64,000 nucleotides of DNA from Comamonas sp. GTDB taxonomy: Bacteria; Pseudomonadota; Gammaproteobacteria; Burkholderiales; Burkholderiaceae_C. The notes below the pieces were generated by a model. It did no database searches. It worked only from the letters and a program-made list of their open reading frames with translations, and was not told the origin of the DNA. Below are positions 39,441-46,181 of the stretch, piece by piece; position 1 is the first letter of the stretch; each line of letters begins with the position of its first letter. The stretch spans positions 62,001 to 126,000 of the forward strand of contig JAQVCA010000005.1 in the NCBI GenBank assembly GCA_028690035.1, given 5' to 3'. A program made the position numbers and the translations under genes.

Positions 39441-40802
39441 TTAAAAGTTGGGGGAGGGTGAGAGCGCGGCTTTGTGCTCAACCGGCAAGGCCAAGCTGGC
39501 AGCAAAGCCCTGGGAACTGCCCGGGCGCGGCGACTGCAGCTGCAGCACGCTGCCTGTGCGCTGGGCAATCGCGTGCACGATAGACAACCCCAGACCGCTG
39601 CCCTGCACGCGTGCGGTGGCGCGCTCAAAGCGCTCGCCCAGACGACGGAGGGCTTCAGGGGGCAACGCTGGGCCGTCGTTGGCCACCGTCAGCAGACCAT
39701 CGGCGCCCAATGCCACATCGATGGGCGCATCCTCGGCGCCATGGCGCAGTGCGTTTTCTAATAAGTTGCGGTAGAGGATGGCAAAAACATCCGGATCTAG
39801 GTCCGAATGCACTGGCGCCTGCGGCAGCTGCAGCACCACACGCCCCGGAGGTAAAGAACGCGTCAGTTCATCGGTCAGCAAGCGCGCCAGCATGCACAGG
39901 TCGGTGCTCTGCGCCAGGCGCAGGCGCCCGCCTTCGGCGCGTGCCAGTTGCAGCAGGCGTTCGGCAAAGCGCGTCAGGCGTTTGAGGGTGGCTTCCATCT
40001 CGGCAGCACGGGCTTTAGCAGCAGGATCGGTGGTTTCCGCCTGCAGGCGTTGCGCTTGGGCAATTGCCCCGGCCAGCGGGGTACGCAGCTCGTGGGCGGC
40101 ATTGGCCGCAAAGCTGCGCTCGGCTTCGAAAGCGGCCGCGAGGCGCAGCAACAAGCCATTGAGCGCCTCGGCCACAGGGGTGACCTCGGTCGGCAGCCCC
40201 TGTGTGGGCACAGGCGACAAATCGCGCGCACTGCGCGCGGCCAAGCGGTCGCGCAATCGGCGCAATGGGGCCAGGTTGGCGCGCACCACCCACACAATCG
40301 CCAGCAGCGCCAGCGGTACCACCACCAGCAAAGGCAGAACCAGGCCCATTTGAATTTCGCGGGCCACGGTCTGGCGGTGGGCCAGTGGTTCAGCCACCGT
40401 CAGGCGCACGCTGCCTTGCAAGGCTTCTTCGCTGTAGAAGCGGTGCGTCGCGGACTGGCTCAAGCCCACCCCAGACCAGGGGGCAAAATCGGTGGCATCG
40501 GCCGTGTGGGACAGCAGCAGCACACGCCCTTGTGCATTGCGCACGATGTAGGCCAACAGTTCATCATGTTCGCGCACTTCTGCCAGGCGCTGGATGACGC
40601 CATCGTCTTCACGCTCGAGCACCTCCGCCACAGCCAGCGGCAGGATGCGCTGTGCCGTTTCCTGCAGACCTGCATCGAACACCTCCTCCATCGCATGGCG
40701 CACCAGCAGCGCAGTGACGGCCGCCGTTCCCAGCCAGAGCAGCGTCAGCAGCACCCCCAAAGCGAGCAGCAAACGCCGTTGCAGGCTGCGCGGCAGGTTC
40801 AT
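39441..40802 (-). CDS. Sensor histidine kinase, QseC/TctE-like
   Basis: A 453-residue membrane kinase. Order: TM1 (about 11-34), a periplasmic sensor of about 115 residues, TM2 (151-173), HAMP, dimerisation domain with His237 in FAANAAHELRTP, and ATPase domain with Asn350 (LLENALRHG), NDGPALP (375-381) and GSGLGLSIVH (401-410). The regulator gene overlaps it by 4 bp upstream. The pair is divergent from the PepSY/ApbE cluster, which is its probable target. The signal is unknown; a metal or redox cue is plausible from the neighbours. Confidence 0.9.
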   Translation of the reverse strand: MNLPRSLQRRLLLALGVLLTLLWLGTAAVTALLVRHAMEEVFDAGLQETAQRILPLAVAEVLEREDDGVIQRLAEVREHDELLAYIVRNAQGRVLLLSHTADATDFAPWSGVGLSQSATHRFYSEEALQGSVRLTVAEPLAHRQTVAREIQMGLVLPLLVVVPLALLAIVWVVRANLAPLRRLRDRLAARSARDLSPVPTQGLPTEVTPVAEALNGLLLRLAAAFEAERSFAANAAHELRTPLAGAIAQAQRLQAETTDPAAKARAAEMEATLKRLTRFAERLLQLARAEGGRLRLAQSTDLCMLARLLTDELTRSLPPGRVVLQLPQAPVHSDLDPDVFAILYRNLLENALRHGAEDAPIDVALGADGLLTVANDGPALPPEALRRLGERFERATARVQGSGLGLSIVHAIAQRTGSVLQLQSPRPGSSQGFAASLALPVEHKAALSPSPNF

Positions 40803-41458
40803 GCCGTCCCCAGCCGATAGCCCAGGCCACGCTCGGTTTCAATAATCTGAGCGCCCAGTTTTTTGCGCAGGCGGCTGACATGCACTTCGATGGTGTTGCT
40901 TTCGATTTCGGTATCGAAGGTGTAGAGCTTTTCTTCGAGCTGCGCCTTAGAAAAAATCTGACCAGGTCGGGACAACAACGCTTCCAGCAAGGCCCATTCA
41001 CGTGCGGTCAGCACCACGGACTGCCCATCACGCTGAAGCTGACGGGCAGCCAGATCGATACGCAGCACACCATGAACAAGCACCGGGCTAGGGTTGCCAC
41101 CGTAGCGACGCGCCACCGAGCCGATGCGTGCCGACAACTCGGCCAAGTCAAAGGGTTTGACCAGATAGTCGTCGGCACCGGCATTCAGTCCGGCAATGCG
41201 ATCCGATACCTGATCGAGCGCGGTCAGGATGATGATGGGCGTGAGCACATGCCCGGCACGCAGGTTGCGCAAGAAAGGGATACCCAGGCCATCGGGCAGC
41301 ATCAGATCAAGCAACACCAGGTCGTAGGCAACGCTCGCCATTGCATGGCTGGCAGCATCCAAACGCTGTACCCAGTCCACGCAGTGGCCATCGCCCGCCA
41401 CTTGGTCGCGCACGGCAGCGCCCAGCACGGCATCGTCTTCAATCAACAGGATACGCAT
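40799..41458 (-). CDS. OmpR-family response regulator
   Basis: A 219-residue regulator. Receiver domain with acidic pocket Asp8/Asp9, phosphoacceptor Asp51 (LLDLMLPDG) and Lys101 (YLVKPFD); C-terminal winged helix with TAREWALLEALLSRPG and ESNTIEVHVSRLRKKLG. Closest in pattern to QseB/TctD/PmrA regulators. It likely controls both its own operon and the divergent genes through the shared TCAGGTTG sites between them. Confidence 0.92.
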   Translation of the reverse strand: MRILLIEDDAVLGAAVRDQVAGDGHCVDWVQRLDAASHAMASVAYDLVLLDLMLPDGLGIPFLRNLRAGHVLTPIIILTALDQVSDRIAGLNAGADDYLVKPFDLAELSARIGSVARRYGGNPSPVLVHGVLRIDLAARQLQRDGQSVVLTAREWALLEALLSRPGQIFSKAQLEEKLYTFDTEIESNTIEVHVSRLRKKLGAQIIETERGLGYRLGTA

Positions 41459-41492
41459 GGGGTGGTTCCATATAGGTGCTTGCGCCGGTGTT

Positions 41493-41538
41493 CAACCTGA
41501 CGGGAAGCTGAAGCATTTTTTGCGTAGGGCTCAGGTTG
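41493..41538. promoter_or_regulatory. Paired TCAGGTTG boxes in the divergent regulatory region
   Basis: TCAGGTTG occurs at 41531-41538 on the plus strand and at 41500-41493 on the minus strand, an exact 8 bp inverted repeat. Each copy has the same orientation relative to the promoter it would serve. They are candidate binding half-sites for the response regulator encoded at 40799-41458. Confidence 0.5.
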
Positions 41539-41548
41539 CCGTCATATA
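41520..41548 (+). promoter_or_regulatory. Candidate promoter of the PepSY/ApbE cluster
   Basis: TTGCGT and CATATA are 17 bp apart on the plus strand, about 40 bp before the first ATG. One TCAGGTTG box lies in the spacer, consistent with control by a regulator. Weak match to consensus. Confidence 0.35.
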
Positions 41549-41590
41549 GAAAAAGCATCCTAGAGGCTTCAATCATAAAGGAGCTCTGCT

Positions 41591-41983
41591 ATGAAACATT
41601 TCCCTGCCATTACCCTTGCTGCTGCTTTGTTTGCCTCTGGTGCCGCTTGGGCAGACAGCGATTGCCACCAGCCTATGGCGCAGTGGCAGCCGCGCGAAGC
41701 GGTCAGCGCCCATGTGCTGGAGCGCGGCATCACCACCGATCGTCTGCGCATCGACGATGGTTGCTATGAAGTGCGTGGCCGCGACAGCGATGGCAACCCA
41801 GTGGAGCTGAAGCTGGATCCAGCATCGCTGGAAATCATGGAGTTCGAGGTGCATTTCCGCCCAGGTGCCGATACCTCGCGCTACCTGCCTGCCGCACGCA
41901 ACACGCCCAGCAAGCCGGCTACTTCTGTAACGCCAGCAGCGCCTGTAGCACCTGTGACACCCACCACGGCCACCATTAACTGA
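41591..41983 (+). CDS. Periplasmic PepSY-domain protein
   Basis: A 130-residue exported protein with a Sec signal peptide (residues 1 to about 21, ending AWA-DS). The mature part shows a PepSY-like unit (RGITTDRLRIDDGCYEVRGRD and PVELKLDPASLEIMEFE) and a Pro/Thr/Ala-rich tail. Two cysteines (in SDCHQ and DGCYE) could pair. It starts the cluster, with an aaaggag site before ATG 41591. PepSY domains are thought to modulate partner enzymes; here the partner is probably the PepSY-reductase downstream. Confidence 0.8.
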   Translation: MKHFPAITLAAALFASGAAWADSDCHQPMAQWQPREAVSAHVLERGITTDRLRIDDGCYEVRGRDSDGNPVELKLDPASLEIMEFEVHFRPGADTSRYLPAARNTPSKPATSVTPAAPVAPVTPTTATIN

Positions 41984-41992
41984 AAGCCAATC

Positions 41993-42481
41993 ATGAAACC
42001 TATCTCGCTCCACACGCTGCTGCCTGTTGCCGCTGTCACCGCCGCACTGCTATCCCCCAGCATGGCCGCTGCGCGGCCTGTGACCGTGACCACGACCCTG
42101 AAAAACTACGGTGGTGATGGCGCCTATTTGGCGCTGTACCTAACCGACCCATCCGGCGCCTATGTACGCACCTTGTGGGTGGCAGGTAAAAAAACCAAGT
42201 ACTACAAACACCTGACCGATTGGTACCGCGCCACGGGTGGCAACCGGTCGCACATCGACGGCATCACCGGTGCCAGTGTGGGAGCAGGACGCACGCTCAA
42301 GGTCACGGTGGAACTGGCCGATGCACTGCTGGATGCCGGTTACCGGCTGAACGTGGATGCCGCCGCCGAGGATATGCAGGACAGCCCTCGCGATGCTGCG
42401 GTGCCACTGAGCAAAGCCGGCGTGGGCAAGCCCACCACAGGACGGCGTTATGTGGCCGATCTGACCTACCGCTTTGAATGA
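41993..42481 (+). CDS. DUF2271 periplasmic protein, candidate FMN-carrying protein
   Basis: A 162-residue exported protein with a Sec signal peptide (cleavage near AAA-RP, about residue 28). The core matches DUF2271: YLALYLTDPSGAYVRTLWVAG, KYYKHLTDWYRATGG, a late RRYVADLTYRFE. It contains D89-G90-I91-T92-G93-A94-S95, which fits the ApbE target pattern D-G-x-(S/T)-G-A-(S/T); Ser95 would carry FMN by phosphoester bond. An ApbE gene lies in the same operon. FMN attachment is an inference. Confidence 0.8.
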   Translation: MKPISLHTLLPVAAVTAALLSPSMAAARPVTVTTTLKNYGGDGAYLALYLTDPSGAYVRTLWVAGKKTKYYKHLTDWYRATGGNRSHIDGITGASVGAGRTLKVTVELADALLDAGYRLNVDAAAEDMQDSPRDAAVPLSKAGVGKPTTGRRYVADLTYRFE

Positions 42482-42494
42482 AGGAGGTGCTGCC

Positions 42495-44702
42495 ATGATG
42501 CGCTGGATACACCGCTGGCTGGGCTTGGGGATCGCGGTCTTGTTGTGTGTTACGGCGCTCAGCGGGGCAGCACTGTCGTTCTTTCCGGCCCAGGAAGCTG
42601 CACGCGCCCCGTCGCCAGAGCCTGGGTTGACCGTCGCTACTCTGGCAGCCCGGGTCCAGGCCAACCACCCTGGCATCGAGCAAATCCAGCGTGCGCCCTC
42701 CGGCAAAATCACCGCTTGGTGGTTTGAAGGGGAGCAACCTGGCTCTGCCGCGATCGACCCCGCCACGGGCCTGGACATCGCGGCTGCCGACCCCAGCCCC
42801 GTGCAGCGCTGGCTGACCACTCTGCACCGTTCGCTGTTTCTGGACGATACCGGACGCATCGCCAGCGCCTTGGGCGCCCTGGCCATGCTGGTTCTGTCGG
42901 TCTCTGGGACGGTGCTGGTGGTGCGGCGCTGTGGCGGCTGGAAAGCATGGCTTGCGCGGGTACAAGGCCCCACGGCTGGGCGCCTGCACACCCAAATCGG
43001 GCGTGTGGCCGTACTGGGACTGTTGCTGTCGTGCAGTACAGGGCTGTGGATGGCCGCCGAAACTTTTGACCTACTGCCCATGGAGCCTGCAAGCTTAGAC
43101 GCTGCCGCGCAAGGCAGTGGTTTGCCCCACCAAGCAATGGACTCCCTGGAAGCGCTTCGCGCCACCCCGGTGACGCAACTGCGCAAGCTGAGTTTTCCTG
43201 CACCTGCGGATGCACAAGATGTGCTGACGATTACCACCGACCAGGGCATGGGCTATGTCGATCCCGGTACTGGAGCAATATTGCACTGGCAGGATCTTGG
43301 CTGGGATCAGCAGGTGTCCGAAACCATTGCCATGCTCCACACCGGTCAAGGTGCGGCGGTGCTGGGGCTCATCCTAGGCTCCGCAGCTTTGTGCATTCCT
43401 ATTTTGAGCATCACGGGCCTCTTGGTGTGGTGGCGGGGTCACCATGCGCGTATCACATACGCCCACCAAGCACCGGTAGCTCAGGCCAAGACAGTAGTGC
43501 TGGTCGGCTCGGAAGGCGGCAGCACCTGGGGCTTTGCTACTACTTTGGCCGATGCGCTGCATGCTTGCGGACAACGGGTACATGTGGCCTCCATGAGCGA
43601 CTGGGACACTGCCCGCTATCGCCAAGCGCAGCGCTTCTTGGTGTTGACATCTACCTATGGGCAAGGTCAGGCCCCTACTGGGGCACAAGACTTTCTGCAC
43701 AAAATTCAAGCATGCTCAGCCGCCACCACCACGCCCATCGCAGTACTGGGCTTTGGCGACCGTAGCTTTCCCGACTTCTGTGCCTTCGCTGCATTGGTGG
43801 AACGTACGGTACGTGCGCAGGGCTGGCCCAGCCTGCTGCCCTACGACACGATTGACAGGCAATCACCACAGGATTTCGCCCGTTGGGGGCGTATGTTGGG
43901 CGAAGCACTGGGTACTCCACTGGAACTGGCCCATCAACCGGTTCGTCCTGCTGCGCAAACACTGACCCTGATTGAGCGCCGCGATTACGGTGCCGACGTG
44001 CAGGTGCCCATATCAATCCTGCGCTTTGCTTTGCCCAGTAGTTCCGTGTGGCAGCGCTTGCGTGGCAAAGGCTTCGCGCCGTTTGAAGCAGGTGATCTTT
44101 TGGGCATCCTGCCTGCAGGATCGGATGTGCCGCGCATGTACTCCCTGGCCTCTGGCAGCCAGGATGGTTTTGTTGAGATTGTGGTGCGCCAGCACCCTGG
44201 CGGTTTGGCGTCTGGTCAGCTGACACAGCTGACACTTGGACAAACCGTACAGGGGTTTCTCAGGCACCATCCGGCCTTTCATGCTCCAAAGGGGAAAGCA
44301 CCACTGGTGCTAATCGGCGCCGGCACAGGGATTGGCCCTTTAGCGGGCTTCATCCGAGCCAACGCTGGCCATCGCCCCATCCACCTGTTCTTTGGCATAC
44401 GACGCAGCAACAGCGATTTTCTCTATCAGCAAGAGCTGGCTGAGTGGCAAGCGGCTGGTCGGTTGAGTAGCCAAACGATTGCCGTCTCGCGCAGCGCATC
44501 ACCGCAGTATGTGCAAGATGCGCTGCGCCAAGCCTCCCCACAGGTGCTAGAGGCTCTGCGCCAGGGGGCCATCATCATGGTCTGCGGTGGTCGGGCCATG
44601 GCACAGGGCGTCAGGGATGCGCTGACCGAAATGCTGGCGCCTACCGGACAAACCCTCCATACATTGCAAGCCGAGCAACGCTATGTCGAAGACATCTACT
44701 GA
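42495..44702 (+). CDS. PepSY-TM protein fused to a CysJ-like flavodoxin/FAD reductase
   Basis: A 735-residue fusion. N-terminal PepSY-TM module with four helices (about 10-30, 124-144, 170-187, 288-313) and conserved helix-edge histidines His7, His111, His165 and His282. Then a flavodoxin domain (332-470, with VLVGSEGG and TSTYGQG), an FAD domain with RMYS (547-550) and a NADPH domain (LIGAGTGIGPLAG, CGGRAMAQGV) ending in the typical aromatic RYVEDIY. It should pass electrons from NADPH via FAD and FMN into or across the membrane. ATG 42495 follows a perfect aaggagg; an upstream TTG was not used. Confidence 0.88.
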   Translation: MMRWIHRWLGLGIAVLLCVTALSGAALSFFPAQEAARAPSPEPGLTVATLAARVQANHPGIEQIQRAPSGKITAWWFEGEQPGSAAIDPATGLDIAAADPSPVQRWLTTLHRSLFLDDTGRIASALGALAMLVLSVSGTVLVVRRCGGWKAWLARVQGPTAGRLHTQIGRVAVLGLLLSCSTGLWMAAETFDLLPMEPASLDAAAQGSGLPHQAMDSLEALRATPVTQLRKLSFPAPADAQDVLTITTDQGMGYVDPGTGAILHWQDLGWDQQVSETIAMLHTGQGAAVLGLILGSAALCIPILSITGLLVWWRGHHARITYAHQAPVAQAKTVVLVGSEGGSTWGFATTLADALHACGQRVHVASMSDWDTARYRQAQRFLVLTSTYGQGQAPTGAQDFLHKIQACSAATTTPIAVLGFGDRSFPDFCAFAALVERTVRAQGWPSLLPYDTIDRQSPQDFARWGRMLGEALGTPLELAHQPVRPAAQTLTLIERRDYGADVQVPISILRFALPSSSVWQRLRGKGFAPFEAGDLLGILPAGSDVPRMYSLASGSQDGFVEIVVRQHPGGLASGQLTQLTLGQTVQGFLRHHPAFHAPKGKAPLVLIGAGTGIGPLAGFIRANAGHRPIHLFFGIRRSNSDFLYQQELAEWQAAGRLSSQTIAVSRSASPQYVQDALRQASPQVLEALRQGAIIMVCGGRAMAQGVRDALTEMLAPTGQTLHTLQAEQRYVEDIY

Positions 44703-45627
44703 CGCGGTGCGTCACACCCTGAATGGCCCCACGATGGGGTCGCGCTGGACCGCTGTTTTTTATGCAGCACCAGGGTTACACAGAGAACCACTGCAGATGG
44801 CCCTACAAACCACGGTGGATCAAGTGGATGCGCAGATGTCCACTTGGCGAGACGATAGCGAGCTCATGCGCCTCAACCAAGTCCCCGTCGGCATGTGGTG
44901 TCCTACATCTCCAGAATTGCTGCATGTACTGACCTTGGGGCTGGCCGTGGGCCGAACCACCAGGGGTGCATTTGATATCGGCATGGGCGATGCAACCCAG
45001 GCTTGGGGTTTTGGCCGCCACCCAGCAGATGCACAACGCATCCGGCTAGCCCTGCAGGCGCAGCGCCGTCCGGCGTACGATTTACTAGAAGTATCCGGGC
45101 AACAAGTACGCAAAACAGGGCCAATTACCCTAGATTTGAATGGGATTGCCAAAGGTTATGGCGTGGATCGGCTGGCCGAGGTGCTAAAGGCACATGGCGT
45201 TCAGGCCGCGCTGGTAGGGATCGATGGAGAGATGCGCGCTTTAGGCCTACGTCCTGACAATGAACCTTGGGCTATTGCCATCGAAGCTCCCGACCCTGAA
45301 TGCCGCACCGCACACGCCATCCTGTCACTGGAGAGTGCTGCTGTAGCCACCTCGGGCGACTACCGGCACTGGGTTGAGGTGGGAGAGCGCCGCTTGGCTC
45401 ACACCATGGATCCCCACAGAAGAGCTCCACTCAGCGAATCTCCAGCATCGGTCACTGTGGTTGCAGCCAGCTGTGCCGAGGCCGATGCCTGGGCCACGGC
45501 ACTGATGGTGCTCGGCGCGGAAGAAGGGAAAAAACTGGCCATGCAACAAGGCATCAGTGCGCTTTTTTTGCTGCGCAGCAAGGACCAAGCAATCTGGACG
45601 GTTTCCTGCGGGCCAGTGTTCGCATAG
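44683..45627 (+). CDS. apbE: FAD:protein FMN transferase
   Basis: A 314-residue ApbE, which attaches FMN to Ser/Thr in target proteins using FAD. Seen: GPTMGSRWTAVF, FDIGMGDATQAWGFG, LDLNGIAKGYGVDRL, GIDGEMRALG, HTMDPHRRAP and DAWATALMVLG with magnesium ligands. It overlaps the reductase gene by 20 bp. Unlike most ApbE proteins it shows no signal peptide or lipobox, so it may act in the cytoplasm before export of its target. Probable target: the DUF2271 protein two genes upstream. Confidence 0.92.
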   Translation: MSKTSTDAVRHTLNGPTMGSRWTAVFYAAPGLHREPLQMALQTTVDQVDAQMSTWRDDSELMRLNQVPVGMWCPTSPELLHVLTLGLAVGRTTRGAFDIGMGDATQAWGFGRHPADAQRIRLALQAQRRPAYDLLEVSGQQVRKTGPITLDLNGIAKGYGVDRLAEVLKAHGVQAALVGIDGEMRALGLRPDNEPWAIAIEAPDPECRTAHAILSLESAAVATSGDYRHWVEVGERRLAHTMDPHRRAPLSESPASVTVVAASCAEADAWATALMVLGAEEGKKLAMQQGISALFLLRSKDQAIWTVSCGPVFA

Positions 45628-45657
45628 ATCAGCGCCGCCATTTCAGCAGCACTTAAC

Positions 45658-45693
45658 AGCAAAAAGGCTACGACATTGTCGTAGCCTTTTTTA
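45658..45693 (-). terminator. Bidirectional terminator after the initiator tRNA
   Basis: AAAAAGGCTACGAC-att-GTCGTAGCCTTTTTT gives a 14 bp stem with a 3 nt loop and T runs on both strands. It can end the rplQ/tRNA transcript on the minus strand and the apbE operon on the plus strand. Confidence 0.92.
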
Positions 45694-45695
45694 TT

Positions 45696-45772
<77 letters not shown>

Positions 45773-45794
45773 ATAAGTTGTCTATTGTAGCAGA

Positions 45795-46181
45795 TTATTC
45801 TGCCGCTTGTTCAGCAGACTCTTCAGCGCGCTCAACCAGTTCCACATAAGCCATGGGAGCGTTGTCGCCGACGCGGAAGCCCATTTTCAAAATACGGGTG
45901 TAACCACCGGGACGCTGTGCATTGCGGGGTCCCAGCACGTTGAACAGCTTGGTCACGCTGTCGCGGTCACGCAGACGGTCAAATGCCAAGCGGCGGTTAG
46001 CTACAGTGTCCACTTTAGCCAGAGTGATCATGGGCTCGATCACACGACGCAACTCTTTAGCCTTGGGCAGGGTGGTCTTGATGGCCTCGTGCTCGATCAA
46101 CGAGTTCATCATGTTTTGCAGCATCGCTTTGCGGTGTGCAGAAGTACGGTTCAGTTTACGTAGGCCGTTGCCGTGACGCAT
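45795..46181 (-). CDS. rplQ: Large ribosomal subunit protein bL17
   Basis: A 128-residue L17 with the conserved start [20 protein letters not shown] and the [24 protein letters not shown] block. Last gene of the alpha operon, 129 bp after rpoA, directly before the initiator tRNA. Confidence 0.97.

Follow-up and report, generated by a model that had tools for sequence, protein, structure and literature searches.

Organization of the locus

We analysed a 64,000-nucleotide (nt) stretch of Comamonas sp. contig JAQVCA010000005.1 (the window, within which all positions are counted), which carries a putative flavin-based electron-export module. Four genes on the plus strand encode (i) an exported PepSY_2 protein with a signal peptide by a hydrophobic-stretch rule (positions 41591-41983; PF13670, E 1.4e-23); (ii) an exported DUF2271 protein, likewise with a signal peptide, that is predicted to carry flavin mononucleotide (FMN) (41993-42481; PF10029, E 1.8e-35); (iii) a fusion of PepSY_TM, flavodoxin, flavin adenine dinucleotide (FAD)-binding, and NAD(P)-binding domains (42495-44702); and (iv) the FAD:protein FMN transferase ApbE, which has no signal peptide (44683-45627; PF02424, E 2.1e-77). 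The preliminary description of this DNA had noted four co-directional, tightly packed genes, with which the coordinates and Pfam domains agree: successive genes are separated by gaps of 9 and 13 nt and then overlap by 20 nt, and, judged by this spacing, they look like one transcription unit. The start of the fusion was taken as the ATG at 42495, which is preceded by AGGAGG; in the open reading frame list, the frame begins with a TTG at 42474.

Two further genes, on the minus strand, bring the module to six; they encode a QseC/PmrB-like sensor histidine kinase (39441-40802; HATPase_c and HisKA above cut-off, 2CSK_N below) and a PmrA/QseB-like response regulator of the OmpR type (40799-41458; Response_reg and Trans_reg_C). 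Two predicted regulator boxes lie in the shared promoter region, namely box 1, an 11-bp direct repeat of the pattern CTGA-N7-CTGA (CTGACGGGAAGCTGAAG; 41497-41513, plus strand), and box 2, an inverted, degenerate partner of box 1 that is one base off the strict pattern (41530-41544, minus strand; reverse complement TGACGGCAACCTGAG). The divergent pair and the boxes are newly described here; the earlier gene inventory was right about the four operon genes, but it overlooked the pair (39441-41458), the lack of an export signal in ApbE, and a second DUF2271-ApbE cluster in the same genome (L003). A terminator-like hairpin with a 14-pair stem followed by a T-rich tail lies 3' of the operon (45661-45691, plus strand); it has the longest stem of the four terminator-like sites found in a scan of 41300-45800, where 3.4 were expected. 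A consensus scan of the same interval gave no sigma-70 promoter.

The DUF2271 protein as a predicted FMN carrier

The DUF2271 protein scored 122 bits against a Pfam cut-off of 27.3, and the ApbE acceptor motif DGITGAS was located where it had been reported, at residues 89-95 (42257-42277, plus strand), with FMN predicted on Ser95. A scan of named genomes with a DUF2271 alignment returned at least 584 relatives, of which the 80 best were kept; these come from alpha-, beta-, and gamma-Proteobacteria. Conservation of the motif, on which the preliminary description had staked its proposal beforehand, held for the TGAS part: Thr92, Gly93, Ala94, and Ser95 are invariant in all 81 sequences (80 relatives plus the window), and GAS is kept in 29 of 29 sequences of a wider DUF2271 alignment. 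The residue that opens the motif varies, being Asn in 64 and Asp in 15 of the 81; Asp often opens ApbE acceptor motifs. The acceptor loop is the least confident stretch of the DUF2271 structural model, with a predicted local distance difference test score (pLDDT) below 50 for residues 89-94, and a disordered loop would suit an ApbE that modifies flexible segments. Foldseek found no match to the fold in the PDB at E ≤ 0.001, and a profile search of the PDB found none at 0.1.

The link between DUF2271 and flavinylation that the preliminary description mentioned has been published. Méheust et al. (2021; PMC8238504) describe DUF2271 as an ApbE substrate via an [S/T]GA[S/T] motif, and they report that a DUF2271 protein from A. 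ursilacus is flavinylated, that the modification is lost on changing the acceptor Thr, and that it takes place in E. coli when both proteins are stripped of their signal peptides. The protein encoded in the window is accordingly predicted, from its sequence, to be an FMN carrier with Ser95 as the acceptor. In clusters that also encode DUF4198 (L184-L211), the DUF2271 motifs vary (DGVTGAT, DGVTGPT, DGVTSPT, DGVSSAT, and DALSSAT), so the published pattern may be too narrow, or some of these proteins may be unmodified.

The membrane-bound diflavin reductase

The fusion protein matched PepSY_TM (E 9.1e-35), Flavodoxin_1 (5.4e-13), FAD_binding_6 (7.6e-05), and NAD_binding_1 (1.2e-13). The four-helix membrane part described earlier reappears in an AlphaFold2 model as four long helices (residues 2-37, 118-146, 160-190, and 288-318). 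Four histidines, which are candidate heme ligands, are kept in 79 of 79 fusions (78 relatives plus the window); three of them, namely His111, His165, and His282, are those named in the preliminary description, but the first is His6 and not His7. A PDB profile search with the membrane domain gave FoxB (7ABW) as the sole match at E up to 1 (E 0.0011), and His6, His111, and His282 align with FoxB histidines in what is a weak alignment. The top PDB matches of the fusion, by sequence and by fold, are diflavin reductases; since all 50 matches listed by Foldseek for the full-length model are diflavin reductases or fusions containing one, the similarity to FoxB rests on sequence. The proposed route from reduced nicotinamide adenine dinucleotide phosphate (NADPH) through FAD and FMN to the membrane fits the domains, the diflavin-reductase matches, and the weak FoxB profile match.

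A function as CysJ, the flavoprotein of assimilatory sulphite reductase, was rejected, with a score of 143 bits for NCBIfam TIGR01931 against a cut-off of 668. In the flavoproteome of Brucella ovis (PMC9045290), a PepSY_TM-flavodoxin-FAD-NAD cluster is listed piecewise as assimilatory sulphite reductase alpha, and the B. ovis ApbE carries the locus tag following that cluster. For this family, CysJ is probably a misnomer.

Conservation and origin of the module

The 80 named loci and 12 window-type loci from a phylum sample (92 loci in all) were grouped at 93% identity of the mature DUF2271 protein into 58 clusters, with 12 loci from genomes of the same family (L021-L032) kept outside the count. 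The suggested search for co-occurrence of DUF2271 and ApbE found apbE in 53 of the 56 clusters with enough sequence, and the fusion was present in 55 of the 56. In the same-family loci, PepSY_2, DUF2271, and the fusion are present in 12 of 12, and ApbE in 11, L023 being cut by a contig end.

A window-like DUF2271 (E up to 1e-6) was found in only 13 of 150 same-family genomes, its own included, and two same-genus genomes, G128 and G604, have the DUF4198 type only. The window DUF2271 protein shares 54-60% identity with the 12 same-family proteins versus 77-79% with proteins from one Nevskiales and one Burkholderiales assembly among the best 80. Moreover, in an ApbE tree of 54 rows, the window belongs to a set of 25 rows, all with the sensor pair (support 99/96), and ten rows, including nine same-family loci, form a separate clade (100/98), with the same-family locus L031 placed elsewhere. 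These relationships suggest that the window module was acquired horizontally. Its G+C content of 0.617 is intermediate between those of the left (0.651) and right (0.592) flanks, so that composition gives no sign of transfer.

The divergent sensor pair, the promoter boxes, and PepSY_2

Both proteins of the divergent pair scored below the NCBIfam equivalog cut-offs: the kinase reached 197 bits versus 475 for QseC and 159 versus 314 for PmrB, and the regulator 205 bits versus 330 for PmrA and 190 versus 345 for QseB. A periplasmic sensor domain follows the first transmembrane helix of the kinase, and its conserved residues include the acidic positions 37, 39, 40, 43, and 48 and His79, His99, His120, and His142. 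The divergent kinase, the divergent regulator, and PepSY_2 were each found in 50 of 55 testable clusters. In the literature on DUF2271, PepSY, ApbE, and two-component control, we found no description of a DUF2271 module linked to a two-component system, supplementary files lying outside the scope of this search.

Promoter conservation was assessed in the 170 nt upstream of the regulator start in 79 of 83 regulator loci plus the window, which gave 63 distinct regions; the remaining four loci were dropped because their start pattern was unrecognised. The pattern CTGA-N7-CTGA occurs in 56 of the 63, where mononucleotide shuffles predict 0.13, and the inverted box pattern in 48. Both boxes occur in order in 41 regions, in 39 of which they are spaced 34-35 nt apart, start to start. 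An 11-bp direct repeat suits a regulator of the OmpR type, and the regulator would bind the paired boxes in the shared promoter. Because the module is mostly linked to a sensor kinase of its own and has conserved candidate operator boxes, a promoter assay could reveal its natural inducer and hence the probable electron acceptor.

The PepSY_2 protein comprises 130 amino acids, and its Cys25 and Cys58 are present in at least 97% of 78 sequences (window included). A tie to the adjacent kinase appears more likely for it than a part in the electron flow. In Vibrio cholerae, DbfQ, a Sec-exported PepSY protein of 135 amino acids encoded beside dbfRS, controls the kinase, and the same report (PMC12714742) gives PepSY proteins near kinases and regulators as more than 60 times commoner than chance and PA2658 as predicted to bind BqsS, which is described elsewhere as an Fe(II) sensor (PMC12666569). 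Given its place beside the kinase, as for DbfQ, PepSY_2 would be a kinase modulator or a metal binder rather than an electron carrier, and modulation of the kinase is a probable role.

Proposed mechanism and the electron acceptor

The whole is best explained, and we think with reasonable probability, as a sensor-controlled system for transmembrane electron export to a metal via FMN on DUF2271. The electron route in the fusion, the site of flavin attachment, regulator binding, the cue, and the metal acceptor are all parts that we reconstruct as follows. Within the fusion, cytoplasmic NADPH would reduce first the FAD and next the FMN bound by the flavodoxin domain; electrons would cross the membrane via two hemes held by His6, His111, His165, and His282, and the exported DUF2271 protein would take them up on the FMN covalently attached to its Ser95. 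The final step would deliver them to an oxidised metal in the periplasm, most likely Fe(III). The signal-less ApbE would attach the flavin in the cytoplasm, to a DUF2271 chain that either awaits or is undergoing Sec export. The divergent kinase and regulator would sense a periplasmic cue (a metal or the redox state), with PepSY_2 as a modulator, and the regulator would drive both transcription units from the paired boxes.

A metal link comes from the Rhodobacterales, in which several genera share a segment of some 13-14 kb at 95-99% identity (L071, L081, L083-L085, L090, L094, L096, L100, and others), suggesting that it was transferred recently. In L081 (518-14414), the segment comprises a ParB_N-domain gene, the kinase/regulator pair, the flavin operon, and, after apbE, genes for a heavy-metal P-type ATPase and then VIT1; a flavoprotein of the Ferric_reduct family is encoded between two PepSY_2 genes, and the same families occur in other loci by similarity. 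From this gene content, the segment looks like a mobile metal-handling island. Per cluster, a ferric-reductase-like gene was found in 8 of 55, the heavy-metal ATPase in 7 of 39, and VIT1 in 7 of 39. Furthermore, PMC8238504 argues for iron reduction by PepSY/DUF2271/ApbE clusters, and a Caulobacter PepSY/DUF2271/DUF4198 operon is reported to be up in iron-homeostasis mutants and to aid fitness in ethylenediaminetetraacetic acid (PMC11870441). A metal such as iron is the most likely final acceptor.

Several observations weigh against a sensor-controlled route to iron. Only a minority of clusters carry the metal genes; the window operon is without an iron gene, and VIT1 was not found in its own genome. 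The FoxB match is weak for single domains (E 0.52 and 4.7). In the 12 same-family loci, the best regulator reached 196 bits and the best kinase 107, compared with regulator scores of mostly 310 bits or more in the counted loci, which indicates that the operon can do without the sensor pair. As to an ExxE motif in the kinase sensor region, sought as the mark of an Fe(II)-sensing kinase of the BqsS kind, Glu37 is present in 56 and Glu40 in 59 of 72 relatives, and the window kinase has Ala37 and Glu40; its own ExxE motifs lie at 60, 75, and 78, and no other acidic pair with ExxE spacing is conserved. Lastly, a Fur-box scan with a crude consensus gave a best 19-mer of 10/19 for the window operon (shuffled mean 10, 95th centile 12) and 11/19 for the second (L003) cluster, neither of them better than chance. 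Five of the 12 same-family loci (L022, L023, L025, L027, and L030) have an only distantly similar regulator nearby, with a kinase match in four.

The system may instead act on a metal other than iron (from the copper, nickel, manganese, and zinc family), as a reducing or tolerance system, in which case the mobile Rhodobacterales island would be a metal-resistance island; we regard this as possible, though on the unlikely side. The island ATPase scored above cut-off both for the heavy-metal family TIGR01525 (512 bits) and for the cadmium family TIGR01512 (471 bits), a PepSY_TM protein, CrpH, has been proposed as a copper reductase (PMC13038864), and UzcRS is described as a U/Zn/Cu sensor in Caulobacter (PMC8963506). 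Iron is nevertheless favoured by VIT1, by the ferric-reductase-like partners, and by the literature on PepSY proteins.

An acceptor that is an oxidised periplasmic protein, reached in disulphide or methionine sulphoxide repair, is rather improbable. MsrPQ under HprRS in E. coli is a precedent for methionine sulphoxide repair, and the near-invariant Cys25 and Cys58 of PepSY_2 could make it a disulphide partner. The kinase/regulator pair is linked to PepSY_2, and some relatives encode a flavocytochrome of Ferric_reduct (PF01794), the Pfam family that stands for MsrQ-like proteins in PMC8238504. Yet the extra genes that join the operon in the annotated loci encode the heavy-metal ATPase and VIT1 (no search was aimed at thiol oxidoreductases or methionine sulphoxide reductases), and these favour a metal acceptor.

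An ApbE without an export signal

In the usual scheme, a periplasmic ApbE modifies a periplasmic DUF2271. The ApbE of the window is without an export signal, and that scheme consequently does not hold here as usually drawn; the site of flavin attachment is the most interesting point of the module. Signals were scored by a home-made rule (a 10-residue charge-free hydrophobic stretch after a basic residue), which was tried on each potential start no more than 90 codons ahead of the ApbE core. None of 97 window-type ApbEs was signal-like (0/75 from named loci, 0/10 from the phylum sample, 0/11 from the same family, one of which is cut at its far end, and the window); ApbE was absent or cut in 5 of the 80 named loci and not present in the stretch for 2 of the 12 phylum loci, and these were left out. 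In contrast, a signal peptide was found in 93 of 93 DUF2271 partners (80 named, 12 same-family, and the window, the 12 phylum loci being outside this count). As a control, we took the 30 best-scoring ApbEs of a 200-genome sample: the 28 without DUF2271 in their 1.5-kb flanks were all signal-positive (L170 doubtfully, its core being badly placed), and the other two, linked to DUF2271-DUF4198, were both signal-negative. A lipobox was found in 0 of 85 window-type ApbEs, 2 of 17 of the DUF4198 type, and 21 of 30 controls, the last by a slightly looser pattern.

An upstream start that would add a signal to the window ApbE was rejected, there being no ATG, GTG, or TTG between the in-frame stop at 44623 and 44683. 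In most window-type ApbEs, the reading frame is interrupted by a stop codon roughly 18-30 codons ahead of the core, from which the nearest start is roughly 13 codons away. Export of a folded, flavinylated DUF2271 by the twin-arginine translocation (Tat) pathway was likewise rejected, as 0 of 80 signals match the Tat pattern. Because the two ApbEs of the genome, which is 99.79% complete and also has two DUF2271 and two PepSY_TM proteins, are both signal-less by the rule, another exported ApbE does not explain flavinylation of DUF2271. In six more genomes, all from the 200-genome sample, the single ApbE match lies beside DUF2271 and is signal-less; the cluster is of the DUF4198 type in five (G161, G313, G503, G604, and G439) and of the window type in one (G500).

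We found no signal-less ApbE with an exported substrate described in the literature on DUF2271, PepSY, ApbE, and two-component control (supplementary files outside scope). Bonardi et al. (2011) are said to have dealt with the passage through SecYEG of chains with bulky attachments. From the distribution of signals, FMN is probably attached to DUF2271 before export, by the signal-less ApbE. The fuller proposal, to which we incline only slightly, is that a whole class of exported flavoproteins receives its FMN in the cytoplasm, by the time Sec translocation starts or while it is under way, so that the unfolded chain carries the flavin through SecYEG. If true, cytoplasmic flavinylation would bypass the need for periplasmic FAD, and it would contrast with the picture of an ApbE located where its substrate ends up. 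Across alpha-, beta-, and gamma-Proteobacteria, an exported substrate is conserved together with an ApbE that has no recognisable export signal, and in several genomes this ApbE is the only one found; the pair offers a clean and cheap test of covalent flavin addition before Sec export.

Some evidence runs counter to flavinylation in the cytoplasm. In clusters of the DUF4198 type, 4 of 17 ApbEs are signal-like (17 of 28 such loci had an ApbE in the stretch), and L198 is a clear lipoprotein. In G128, where the single ApbE match again lies beside DUF2271, the rule gives a signal when translation is taken from a start 72 codons ahead of the core (L197). PMC8238504 calls the A. ursilacus ApbE "signal peptide-truncated", and, in the sections of a review covered here (PMC12052999), the ApbEs named as cytoplasmic are only those with cytoplasmic targets or fused to them. 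As a side observation, eleven of 28 DUF2271-DUF4198 clusters are without an ApbE in the stretch (L187, L190, L195, L200, L202-L204, L206, L207, L209, and L211), and two genomes of such clusters have a signal-bearing ApbE elsewhere (G310, L180; G594, L155).

ApbE could reach the periplasm by an unrecognised route and work there, an explanation that we consider unlikely. According to PMC12052999, ApbE for secreted targets is exported and lipid-anchored, and its periplasmic place mattered in an early knock-out test, in which a cytosolic version could not stand in for the exported enzyme; on the other hand, for none of the 97 window-type ApbEs does a start within 90 codons of the core give a signal. 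Least probable is another cytoplasmic target for the signal-less ApbE (as for Klebsiella fumarate reductase), with no covalent flavin on DUF2271: cytoplasmic ApbEs with cytoplasmic targets exist (PMC12052999), but FMN_bind was not found in the genome (DUF3570 being outside the search), DUF2271 is conserved along with ApbE and its acceptor motif is invariant, and the signal-stripped A. ursilacus protein is flavinylated in E. coli (PMC8238504).

Comparison with known systems

The closest comparison within the genome is L003 (2409-7010, minus strand; G000:C22:98408-103009), which, like the window, encodes a PepSY_TM protein (207 amino acids), a DUF2271 protein, a signal-less ApbE, and a flavodoxin-FAD-NAD reductase. 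Unlike in the window, these are separate genes, DUF4198 is present, DUF2271 has DGVSSPT in place of TGAS, and the 14-kb stretch has no kinase or regulator match. The reductase part of the window fusion resembles CysJ and cytochrome P450 reductase in its order of flavodoxin, FAD, and NAD(P) domains and in its top PDB matches; unlike CysJ, it is fused to a membrane domain and has FAD_binding_6, with no FAD_binding_1 at the Pfam threshold used.

With FoxB (7ABW) and the PepSY_TM bis-heme reductases, the fusion shares the PepSY_TM domain and four conserved histidines, three of which align, weakly, with those of FoxB; the Pseudomonas aeruginosa FoxB structure is reported to have two heme sites with conserved His pairs (PMC11334425). 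Unlike FoxB, the fusion has its own diflavin reductase and a partner DUF2271 protein. The PepSY_2 gene recalls DbfQRS of V. cholerae and BqsS-PA2658 of P. aeruginosa, where a small Sec-exported PepSY protein is likewise encoded beside a kinase and a regulator. The window PepSY_2 (PF13670) differs in lying on the opposite strand and in being linked to a flavin reductase operon.

The nearest published relatives are the PepSY-like systems of Méheust et al. (PMC8238504), for which 3220 clusters are counted, 2833 with DUF2271 and 1500 with DUF4198, along with 1077 PepSY-like genes that have an NAD-binding domain. The window operon shares with them PepSY_TM, ApbE, DUF2271 with [S/T]GA[S/T], and the NAD-binding domain of a subset, and it differs in being without DUF4198, in having the reductase fused to PepSY_TM and a signal-less ApbE, and in the PepSY_2 gene and divergent kinase/regulator pair; within that paper, its supplementary tables aside, no type linked to a two-component system is described. 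The lead offered in the preliminary description was thus sound as an instance of a real system, but it was largely in print already, and, the core chemistry being known, the find itself is modest. In summary, the core idea of electron export by PepSY, DUF2271, and ApbE is already published, and the locus is a sensor-linked, fused-reductase variant of it.

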